Source: Clostridia bacterium (GTDB lineage Bacteria > Bacillota > Clostridia > Oscillospirales > Acutalibacteraceae). From it: a stretch of 52,548 nucleotides of DNA. Within the stretch, counting starts at the first letter, position 1, and each line of letters opens with the position of its first letter. Location: NCBI GenBank assembly GCA_017502085.1, contig JAFVVQ010000005.1, positions 1 to 52,548 on the forward strand, read 5' to 3'. Below, in pieces: positions 17,395 to 20,800 of this stretch. The notes beneath the pieces are model-generated. The model was not told the origin of the DNA and made no database searches. It saw only the letters and a list, made by a program, of their open reading frames with translations. A program made the translations under genes and the position numbers.

Positions 17395-18153
17395 TTATAT
17401 AAGCACTTTTGAAAGGAATTCCTTGAGTCTGGGATTCTTCGGATTTGAGAAGAATTCATCGGGACTGTTTTCTTCCATAATGATTCCTTCATCCATAAAA
17501 ACAACTCTTGAAGCAACTTCCTTTGCGAAGCCCATTTCGTGAGTGACAACTACCATTGTCATACCGCTTTGAGCGAGATTCTTCATAACGTTGAGAACTT
17601 CGCCGACCATTTCGGGGTCGAGAGCGGAGGTGGGTTCGTCGAAAAGCATAACTTCGGGATCCATCGCAAGTGCACGGACAATGGCAACTCTCTGCTTCTG
17701 ACCGCCCGAAAGCTGTGAAGGATAAGCCTTTGCTTTGTCGGAAAGACCGACTGTTTTGAGGAGATCGTATGCTTTTTCTTCGGCATCTTTTTTATTCAGA
17801 TGTCCGAGCTTGGTGGGTGCCAGAGTAATGTTGCTGAGGATGGAATGGTTGTTAAAAAGGTTGAACTGCTGGAAAACCATACCCATTTTTTCGCGGTGCT
17901 TGTTGATGTTTGTCTTTTTGTCAGTAATATCAACGCCGTCAAATTCAATTACACCGCCGGTGGGCTCTTCGAGTCTGTTGAGACAGCGGAGAAAGGTTGA
18001 TTTACCCGAGCCTGAAGGTCCGATAACAACAACAACCTCGCCTTTTCTGATTTCGGTATCGATGCCCTTGAGAACGTCGAGTTTACCGAAGCTTTTTTTC
18101 AAGCCCGTTACCTTGATGATAACGTCATTATCCTTTTTGATATCAGTGGTCAC
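17395..18153 (-). CDS. Polar amino-acid ABC transporter ATP-binding protein (GlnQ/HisP type)
   Basis: ATPase of 252 residues powering amino-acid import. It has Walker [10 protein letters not shown], the Q-loop FQQFNLF, the signature [11 protein letters not shown], Walker [13 protein letters not shown] and the switch His in VVTHEMGFA. The start is set at GTG 18153: AAAGGAGG lies 10 bases upstream, and the resulting N terminus matches the family. Longer readings run antisense-like through the permease 3' end. The gene overlaps the permease stop by 11 bases, implying translational coupling. It is the last gene of the operon binding protein, permease, ATPase. Confidence 0.95.
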
Positions 18154-18880
18154 TGTTGCGAAGCCTCCTTTCGAGGATTTCAACCAACTTCGTGAAGAAG
18201 AGAACGAGAACGAGATAGATGAGAGCAACCGCAATCAGAGGCATAAACGCAGAGTATGTACGGCTTCTGATAAGGTCGCCTGCTTTTGTAAGATCCTGAA
18301 GGGCAACGTAACCCGAAACGGAGGTTTCCTTGAGGAGAACGATGAATTCGTTGGCAAGTGCGGGGAGAACGTTTTTGAGAGCCTGAGGGATAATAATCTG
18401 AGTCATGGTCTGTGTATAACTCAGACCGAGGCTTCTGCCCGCTTCAAACTGACCCTTGTCAATCGACATAATACCCGAACGGACAATTTCAGCAACGTAA
18501 GCACCCGAGTTGATGCCGAATGCAAGCGATGCAACGAGGATTTTGCTGTCAACCGAAACGAGTATTACGTAATAAATGAGCATAAGCTGAACAACAACGG
18601 GCGTACCTCTGATGACCGTCAGATAAATCTTGGCTATCATATTTGCGAATTTGAGGAGATTACGTGCGATAGGGTTACCGATCGTGGAAATATTTGTATC
18701 GTGAGTTGATCTTATGAGAGCGAGAACAACACCGATTACTATGCCGAGAAGCACAGAAAAGAAGGTTACCTGAAGAGTAACCAGAAGACCGTCGACAAGC
18801 CACTTCCATCTGTCGCCGTCGATAAAGTTGAAGACAAAGTCTTCTTTAAAATCGTTGAAAATACTGATTATATTATTCAT
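18143..18880 (-). CDS. Polar amino-acid ABC transporter permease (HisM/GlnP type)
   Basis: Membrane subunit of 245 residues with about five helices. The first is [20 protein letters not shown], typical of the His/Glu/Gln permease family. The EAA loop that docks the ATPase reads [27 protein letters not shown] 18880 is preferred over GTG 18895 because AGGTGA sits upstream of it at a usable distance. It lies between the binding-protein gene, with a stem-loop in the 78-base gap, and the overlapping ATPase gene. A single permease probably works as a homodimer. Confidence 0.94.
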
Positions 18881-18918
18881 TGATAGCAAAATCACCTGCT
18901 GTTTATAAATTTAAATGA

Positions 18919-18937
18919 GGGCAGGGAAAACCTGCCC
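18919..18937 (-). terminator. Intra-operon stem-loop after the binding-protein gene
   Basis: A GC-rich 7-bp stem (GGGCAGG / CCTGCCC) with loop GAAAA lies between the binding protein and permease genes. On the minus strand it is followed only by a weak T-rich stretch. Such structures commonly stabilise or partly terminate the mRNA so that binding protein is made in excess over the membrane subunits. Confidence 0.6.
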
Positions 18938-18958
18938 CCATAAGTGTTTTTGTTATGA

Positions 18959-19807
18959 TTATTTGTTGTTGACCTTAACGAATTCCTTAGCAGGTTCATT
19001 GTCGATAACAACGCAGTCAACCTTGCCGGTGATAAGAGCCTGAACTGCATCAGCACCCTTGCTGTAACGCTCGATTGTTGCGGTGGGTTCGCCTTCTTCG
19101 GGTTCTGCAAGATCCCATGTTGTGTAAAGGTCACCTGTTGTGCCCTGCTGAACGCCTACCTTCCAGAGTGAACCGTCAGCCTTGGGAGCGAAGAGATCAT
19201 CAGCTGATGTGATAGCTGAGCCTTCCTTAACGATAACAACCTGAACGCCTGTAGCATATGACTCCGTGAAGTTGACGGACTGCTTTCTTTCTTCTGTTAC
19301 TGTGAGACCTGCCATGATGAACTGGATTCTGCCTGCCTCAAGAGCGGGGATGAGACCGTCGAATGCCATATCTTCGATAACAAGCTTCTTGCCGAGTTTG
19401 TCAGCGATTGCTGCTGCGATTTCAGCATCGATACCTACGATAGCGTCGCCTTCTTTGAATTCATAGGGAGGGAATTCAGCATTGGTACCCATCTTGATTT
19501 CTTCTTTGCCTTCAACGTTCTGCTGGAAAACAAGATCGTGCTCTGTGCCGAGGATGTATTTATCCTGAATCTTCTTAACGGTGCCGTCATTCTTGAGAGC
19601 GATGAGGGCATTGTTGATATCCGTGAGAAGCTGAGCGTTTTCTTTGCCTACTGCGATTGCGTAATCCTCTGTGATATATTCAGTATCAAGGATTGCAAGT
19701 TTTGCGTCTTTGTTTGTTTCATCCTTTGTGCCGCCGCAAGCTGAGAATGCGGTAACAACAAAAACAAGAGCCATAACGAGAGCAATGAGTTTGATTGTCT
19801 TTTTCAT
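18959..19807 (-). CDS. Amino-acid binding lipoprotein with circularly permuted domain order
   Basis: Solute-binding lipoprotein of the polar amino-acid importer, 282 residues. The signal peptide ends at the lipobox AFSAC with lipidated Cys24. ATG 19807 is chosen because GGAGG lies 9 bases upstream. Residues 103-282 are the usual start and middle of a GlnH-type protein (KMGTNAEFPPYEF, FDGLIPALEAGRI, TVTEERKQSVNFT, VGVQQGTTGDLY, VVIDNEPAKEFV), but the protein stops there. The segment that normally follows (ILDTEYITEDYAIAV, LLTDINNALIALKNDGT, IQDKYI) is found instead at residues 38-85, before the N-terminal module, joined by a short linker at 86-102. All parts are present once and in one frame, so a functional permuted fold is likely. 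It is first in the operon. Confidence 0.9.
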   Translation of the reverse strand: MKKTIKLIALVMALVFVVTAFSACGGTKDETNKDAKLAILDTEYITEDYAIAVGKENAQLLTDINNALIALKNDGTVKKIQDKYILGTEHDLVFQQNVEGKEEIKMGTNAEFPPYEFKEGDAIVGIDAEIAAAIADKLGKKLVIEDMAFDGLIPALEAGRIQFIMAGLTVTEERKQSVNFTESYATGVQVVIVKEGSAITSADDLFAPKADGSLWKVGVQQGTTGDLYTTWDLAEPEEGEPTATIERYSKGADAVQALITGKVDCVVIDNEPAKEFVKVNNK

Positions 19808-19840
19808 TTTGTTGACCTCCATAGTTTTATTGGTGTATTA

Positions 19841-19868
19841 ATTATAACATTAAATTATAAAAAATCAA
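19841..19868 (-). promoter_or_regulatory. Sigma-A promoter of the amino-acid ABC operon
   Basis: Minus-strand TTGATT (19863-19868), 16 bases, then a perfect TATAAT (19841-19846), 33 bases before the start codon. Confidence 0.65.
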
Positions 19869-19903: not shown

Positions 19904-20800
19904 TTATGCGTTTTCGGTCCCGTTTTTCACTATTTCAACGGCTTTTGTAAAATCTTCCCATAACGGGGCGGTGAAAACCATTTCTTCACCCGTAACGGGA
20001 TGAGTGAGCTTACAGCTTCGGCAATGCAGAAGCTGATGCCCGATTTCCGTCATAAAATCGCCGTACATATCGTCTCCCGCAAGCGGATGACCGATATGAG
20101 CCATATGCACTCTTATCTGATGAGTTCTGCCCGTTTCGAGATTGAGCCGTACGACTGTAGCCGTGTCAAATTCTTCTTCAACGGTCCAGTGCGTAAGCGC
20201 CGATTCGCCTTCAATTTCATATGAGCAGGCACGCAGAGTTTTCATCGGGTCGGGTCTGTAAATCGGCACGTCGATGCTGCCGTTTCCCGAAAGATTGCCT
20301 TTGATGAGCGCACAGTATTCTTTTCTGACGTTGCCCGAAAGCTTGCAGGCGGCAAGTGAATTAAGGGCACACACAACAACACCCGAAGTGCCTTTGTCGA
20401 GTCTGCCGACGGAACGGAAAGAGCTTCGGATCCCTTTTGTATCAAGGTAAGCGGCTACTGCGTTTGCGAGAGTGTCTCCCTGATGATTGTGTGTCGGATG
20501 CATTGCCATAAACGGCGATTTGTTGATGACGAGAATGTCGTCGTCTTCATAAAGTATTTGAAGATCCGCTTTCATCGGCTCGGGAGCGTTGCCGCTGTCG
20601 GGGATAAAAACAGTTACGGTGTCTCCGCGTTTCAGTATGTCCGAGGTGCGGGTTTTTGTTCCGTTGAGTCTGATCCCGTCGGGAGTGAATTTGATGCTTC
20701 TGACAATTCTTGCAGAAAAGCCGCAGAATCCCCGCAAAAATTGACCGACTTTCTGGCCGTCGTACTCCTGCGAAACGATATAACTGATTTCTCTCGGCAT
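19904..20800 (-). CDS. RluA family pseudouridine synthase (RluC/RluD type)
   Basis: Converts specific uridines in 23S rRNA or tRNA to pseudouridine. The 298 residues contain an N-terminal S4-like RNA-binding region (QFLRGFCGFSARIVRSIKF) and the catalytic domain. Its motif VGRLDKGTSGVVV holds the catalytic Asp; further family blocks are ILVINKSPFMAMHPTHNHQ and ETGRTHQIRVHMAHIGHPLAGDD-like sequence. The exact target uridine cannot be told. It is monocistronic, divergent from a lipoprotein gene, with a near-consensus promoter. Confidence 0.95.
   Translation of the reverse strand: MPREISYIVSQEYDGQKVGQFLRGFCGFSARIVRSIKFTPDGIRLNGTKTRTSDILKRGDTVTVFIPDSGNAPEPMKADLQILYEDDDILVINKSPFMAMHPTHNHQGDTLANAVAAYLDTKGIRSSFRSVGRLDKGTSGVVVCALNSLAACKLSGNVRKEYCALIKGNLSGNGSIDVPIYRPDPMKTLRACSYEIEGESALTHWTVEEEFDTATVVRLNLETGRTHQIRVHMAHIGHPLAGDDMYGDFMTEIGHQLLHCRSCKLTHPVTGEEMVFTAPLWEDFTKAVEIVKNGTENA

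Follow-up and report, generated by a model that had tools for sequence, protein, structure and literature searches.

Natural circular permutation of a tethered substrate-binding protein has been described for TpMglB-2 (Tp0684) of Treponema pallidum, a Type I glucose-binding lipoprotein; its authors put forward the name 'Type Ic' and suggested that the permutation is connected with tethering (PMC4990184). In searches of the open-licence PMC literature, the titles and abstract openings listed yielded no natural permutation of a Type II (cluster F) protein. Here we analysed 52,548 nucleotides of contig JAFVVQ010000005.1 from a Clostridia bacterium (hereafter the window), in which the gene at 19807-18959 on the minus strand (282 amino acids plus stop; the plus-strand frame is interrupted by stops) encodes a circularly permuted amino-acid binding lipoprotein. 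An earlier, sequence-only reading of this DNA knew of no description of such an arrangement in this family; a permuted Type I precedent does exist, and for Type II proteins the remark stands within the literature just named.

Order of modules in the binding protein

Residue numbers are counted from an in-frame ATG at 19822, which is probably not the start used, and equal those of the sequence-only reading plus 5. The evidence for each part includes the ratio of non-synonymous to synonymous substitution (dN/dS) and the predicted local distance difference test score (pLDDT).

18959..19807, minus strand: permuted amino-acid binding lipoprotein gene (open reading frame (ORF), translation, Shine-Dalgarno sequence; PF00497, 119 bits)
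19736..19807, minus strand: signal peptide up to the predicted lipidated Cys29 (FSAC motif, C29 column)
19709..19735, minus strand: short free linker from Cys29 to the moved segment, residues 30-38 (dN/dS, pLDDT)
19547..19708, minus strand: moved segment, the canonical C-terminal (C) module, residues 39-92 (C profile, pLDDT, dN/dS)
19508..19546, minus strand: junction linker, residues 93-105, of FQQN type in group A, defined below (profile, dN/dS)
18962..19507, minus strand: canonical N-terminal (N) module, residues 106-287 (phmmer, VIA-align, N profile)

The motif FSAC at the predicted Cys29 is what we take to be the lipobox, and the C29 column is invariant across 10 aligned permuted proteins. 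The proposal that about 50 residues are absent from the C terminus and present behind the lipobox proved correct. When the protein was compared with the PDB by phmmer, residues 108-285 matched residues 11-178 of 4zv1 (AncQR; independent E-value (i-E) 3.7e-31) and residues 37-89 matched residues 178-230 of the same chain (i-E 3.3e-4), that is, in swapped order. The same order was obtained for 4ymx and 5tuj, for which the short pieces alone were not significant (i-E 2.7 and 0.33). Profiles for which 15 same-genus canonical proteins were used, with the window protein left out, recovered both modules from the six frames of the window, the C module at 59.2 bits (i-E 1e-18) and the N module at 221.7 bits (i-E 2.5e-68). 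No other C module was found in the window, where the runner-up match scored 2.7 bits, or 3.6 bits with a profile that included the window's own segment. Nor does a canonical C segment lie downstream: the gap of ~63 bases between the stop and the permease ORF, which contains a hairpin, is too short for a lost segment. The first 159 loci contain 1667 ORFs of at least 100 amino acids; the C module was matched by 162 of these (E 1e-3, with a C profile that included the window's own segment), and all 162 also matched the N module (E 1). The junction linker anticipated by the sequence-only reading exists, with its extent slightly corrected from about residues 91-107 by eye to 93-105 by profile.

The C module thus precedes the N module, in place of the order lobe 1a, lobe 2, lobe 1b, and the circular permutation is confirmed. 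Standard annotation does not flag it, because Pfam scores an ordinary family 3 protein in two stretches (PF00497, cut-off 26.4 bits) and no NCBIfam model (GlnH, ArtI/J, HisJ and others) exceeds its cut-off; the best, TIGR01096, reached 134.1 of 256.35 bits, and a canonical control fragment (L054) likewise fell below, at 132.4 bits. Annotators should be aware that these models do not reveal a rotated chain order.

Predicted fold and position of the lipid anchor

By alignment, the moved segment comprises the last strand of lobe 2, a hinge crossing, a lobe-1 strand and two helices, and the N module comprises the first part of lobe 1, the hinge and most of lobe 2, with the chain terminating in ...VNNK. 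VIA-align pairs residues 108-287 with residues 4-171 of Escherichia coli GlnBP (1wdn); the structural match from VIA and Foldseek covers about residues 104-287 and the rest fits by sequence. The small domain of GlnBP spans residues 90-180 and the second hinge crossing residues 181-185, according to PMC7400645; because the pairing stops at 171, the cut site falls in the small lobe. Judged from this alignment, both new termini are in lobe 2 (the small lobe), whose last strand is the one next to the anchor. This supports a shift of the lipid tether, itself based on predicted lipidation, from lobe 1 to lobe 2, and bears out the suggestion that the anchor had moved to a different lobe.

Rotation would have turned the lobe 1a, lobe 2, lobe 1b arrangement of canonical chains into last lobe-2 strand plus lobe 1b, linker, lobe 1a and remaining lobe 2; the linker would bridge the former termini in lobe 1, while the lipid tether would hold lobe 2. 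Such re-anchoring may alter docking on the permease. The structure prediction that the sequence-only reading had called for is a confident AlphaFold2 model (pLDDT 91; moved segment 95-98; block 31-40, 68), according to which the protein most likely adopts the usual Type II fold with two lobes; this confidence, together with sequence homology, argues that the moved segment is correctly placed. A domain-swapped dimer, in which two chains exchange the moved segment, would suit the short linker, and the data do not separate closure within a chain from closure between chains. We consider it unlikely, however, as a single chain is predicted with high confidence including the linker (pLDDT 88-90 in blocks 91-110).

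Conservation of the arrangement

The same arrangement is found in three congeners with 82-86% identity, and in one further congener it is split by contig ends. Values of dN/dS were estimated by the Nei-Gojobori method against loci L005, L006 and L007, and are rough because some of the synonymous distances approach saturation and the linker is 13 codons long. The moved segment gave 0.03 against L005 and 0.05 against L007 (L006 was not computable owing to saturated synonymous sites), the junction linker 0.04-0.21 and the N module 0.05-0.09, whereas the stretch just behind the lipobox (residues 30-38) gave 0.65-1.18. Three close orthologues thus appear, from these ratios, to hold the arrangement under purifying selection.

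An artefact confined to one genome bin, from faulty assembly or a local rearrangement, might be suspected, given that the window genome consists of 66 contigs and is 84.5% complete. The order is repeated in the congeners, in four loci from named records (L050-L053) and in a one-contig genome, and dN/dS is low on either side of the junction; independent genomes therefore contradict an artefact, which we rejected as extremely improbable. Equally, the absent C terminus could indicate a truncated protein in decay, with the front segment a chance resemblance or a relic. The frame is open and kept in congeners, as the sequence-only reading had proposed to check, and both the moved segment and the linker are constrained; besides it, the window genome yielded one PF00497 protein (L001), which is a different, canonical paralogue. 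We rejected a pseudogene as very unlikely, although marginally less so than an artefact.

Operon context and function

The binding-protein gene is the first of a minus-strand operon that continues into the permease and ATPase of an ATP-binding cassette (ABC) transporter.

19904..20800, minus strand: pseudouridine synthase (PF00849, Pfam), here termed RluD-type, the upstream neighbour and locus marker in the genus
19841..19868, minus strand: promoter-like TTGATT-16-TATAAT with TG extension (match to consensus alone)
19815..19820, minus strand: Shine-Dalgarno-like GGAGGT upstream of ATG 19807 (sequence reading)
18915..18941, minus strand: stable hairpin in the gap that separates the binding-protein gene from the permease gene (stem of 11 pairs, -19.6 kcal/mol, z -4.4)
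18143..18895, minus strand: ABC permease, PF00528 (Pfam)
17395..18234, minus strand: ABC ATPase ORF, PF00005, with the true start probably further inside (ORF, Pfam)

The GGAGGT at 19820-19815, ahead of ATG 19807, upholds the gene limits 18959-19807 given by the sequence-only reading. The intergenic hairpin is GC-rich and has counterparts at L005, L006, L007 and L026 (z -2.45 to -4.62) and a weak one at L051 (z -1.18); PMC9045158 is a study of internal terminators and the stoichiometry of ABC transporters in Clostridia.

Encoded alongside a permease and an ATPase, and with binding-site motif residues conserved, the gene very probably specifies a functional, lipid-anchored, circularly permuted protein that binds substrate for an ABC importer of polar amino acids. 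It would close on an alpha-amino acid and hand it over to the adjacent permease, as the operon suggests. Some points weigh against this assignment: just 5 of the 83 rows in the AlphaFold2 alignment were permuted, the remainder being canonical modules as separate rows, and the fold is predicted and the ligand and its delivery are inferred. A role as sensor or scavenger, with supply of the permease given up, is conceivable, because permutation could change docking, and TpMglB-2 has been discussed as a chemoreceptor (PMC4990184). The operon with permease and ATPase in both the A and B lineages, and permuted units that continue by eye into a permease in one chain (L181 and L041), make this improbable, somewhat more so than the swapped dimer.

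Of 45 genomes of the genus that were searched, including that of the window, 35 were read at a binding-protein gene with the RluD-type neighbour in view. The locus is canonical in 19 of these, of the window's type (type A) in 5 and of a second permuted type (type B) in 11; contig ends break the locus in G030, of type A, and in G023, of type B. The two types share 36-38% identity and have equivalent chain ends, but the linker differs (YFGDGTPTAVKSAALDPSKDQ in B versus YILGTEHDLVFQQNVEGKEE in A). Among the loci read for gene neighbours, stand-alone A and B genes are followed immediately by a permease on the same strand in all but three cases, which lie at contig ends. By sequence comparison, then, one locus in one genus carries a canonical, type-A or type-B binding protein depending on the species.

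Distribution and number of origins

The order C module, lobe 1a, lobe 2 (C-N1-L2) extends well beyond the genus. Counts in the following samples are lower bounds, as weaker cases may be missed. Full-length A/B-type matches occurred in at least 26 of 150 genomes of the family sample, and all 26 loci (L130-L155) had the C module before the N module by module scan. The order sample yielded full-length matches in at least 23 of 245 genomes, from 10 families; loci were read for 16 of the 23 (11 + 5) and the remaining 7 are counted from match coverage alone. Reading L191 and L190 added G377 (split match) and G396 (weaker, with another linker), bringing the total to about 25 of 245. Of 14 order-sample regions read, 13 had the C-N1-L2 order, and L192 (1642-3933, plus strand) proved to be two canonical binding domains in tandem in a single chain. 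One permuted locus (L180) is from a one-contig genome of 2,185,546 bases (G418). Among the matches listed for 199 genomes of the phylum sample, none was full-length beyond the window's own genome. A scan of the best 80 of 516 named relatives found the order in 4 by module scan (L050-L053), with the record labels Clostridia bacterium (goat rectum), Oscillospiraceae, Ruminococcaceae and Clostridiales. The genome search suggested earlier thus shows that the arrangement is not a singleton.

Two further lineages, D (L198, L199, L201, L215-L219) and E (L200, L205, L212), also show this rotation and belong to a different subfamily, which has a WNGM/WNGF/WSGMT/WAGMT-like signature. Lineage E grouped (100/100) with seven canonical proteins from the window's genus, and forcing all 22 permuted rows of an unrooted 41-row tree, in which L190, L213 and L186b have long branches, into one clade cost 334.6 log-likelihood units (approximately unbiased (AU) test, p 1.5e-5). 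The C-N1-L2 rotation therefore appears, on these trees, to have arisen more than once; one gain with reversals is formally possible, but we judge a return to the canonical order implausible. Groups A and B were separate in the best trees, and a single clade was not rejected (AU p 0.274 with 59 rows, 0.209 with 67 rows). Group A with L052 formed no clade in the first trees (AU p 0.257), became a clade (97/93) once sampling was increased, and in the 41-row tree again lacked resolution, adjoining two canonical rows. In a permease tree, with an outgroup (L001) that is too distant (branch 10), four A permeases were not united and fell without resolution among canonical ones, and B was recovered as a clade whose branch is very long (3.1). 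Separately, in two congeners a permuted gene (L213, 1633-758, minus strand) and a canonical one (L210, 748-1587, plus strand) have nearly identical signal peptides and lipobox linkers and different mature parts, as if the leader had been exchanged.

A second rotation and tandem arrays

In at least 18 of the 150 family-sample genomes, the best match started in the C module and extended no further than lobe 1a. The 18 loci (L160-L177), which with two others (L178 and L179) were chosen for this pattern, have the order lobe 2, C module, lobe 1a (L2-C-N1) by module scan, with the cut at the first hinge crossing. Fourteen are complete and stand-alone (L160, L161, L163-L168, L172-L177), three continue by eye into a permease (L169-L171) and one is cut (L162); of the two others, L179 is canonical and fused, and L178 has part of the pattern. 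Beyond the order there are weaker cases (L194, L195 and L197; L196 is unclear). A single clade of all second-rotation proteins gave AU p 0.0266, or 0.17 without L160/L161, and the main set plus L160/L161 gave 0.0438, a grouping picked after the tree was seen. These values support polyphyly moderately, and the second rotation has possibly also arisen more than once.

Several loci combine binding units with a permease. By eye, L041 (13896-12358, minus strand, 512 amino acids) joins one lobe-2-first unit to a permease, and the profile misses its lobe 2 because of divergence; in L073, L084 and L119, arrays with lobe 2 first run into an ABC permease; and L076 (3881-6757, plus strand, 958 amino acids) has three canonical domains and a permease. 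We also observed a 524-amino-acid chain (L181, 262-1836, plus strand) with the C-N1-L2 order that continues into an apparent permease, lobe 2 leading into the membrane part. As tandem arrays contain both rotated orders, either rotation could be obtained by losing outer parts, and we infer a route of tandem duplication followed by such loss, with tandem canonical arrays present in relatives. A broader reading, to which we give somewhat less than even weight, is that chain order is free for cluster F binding proteins here and that recurrence at two breakpoints, in unrelated origins, probably through tandem copies and with the lipid anchor brought to lobe 2 each time, reflects selection on which lobe is tethered with respect to the permease.

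Comparison with known systems

Canonical and permuted forms at one locus in one genus, with the same rotation in separate lineages, provide natural matched pairs for the effects of tether position and chain termini on closure and permease docking. The window protein resembles canonical cluster F (Type II) proteins such as GlnH, ArtJ, Thermotoga maritima ArgBP and AncQR (4zv1) in its sequence family, in its fold (about residues 104-287), in its binding-site motifs and in its operon partners; it differs in its rotation, in its extra linker, and in that lobe 2, not lobe 1, has the termini and the anchor. In the tandem SBD1-SBD2 of GlnPQ (6h30), the C segment runs into lobe 1 of the next domain, which is the junction needed for a duplication route; among the top 60 of 188 and the top 60 of 427 matches in two profile searches of the PDB, 6h30 alone has a best stretch that crosses this junction. 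The GlnPQ domains are nevertheless complete, canonical and in tandem, not permuted, and GlnPQ-type receptors are fused to their permease, whereas the window protein and its permease are separate ORFs. TpMglB-2 ('Type Ic / Cluster Bc') is likewise a natural permutation of a tethered binding protein, but it has a Type I (cluster B) sugar-binding fold with another cut site and moved part; the sequence and structure matches of the window protein are to Type II amino-acid binding proteins, and the two permutations are unrelated events.
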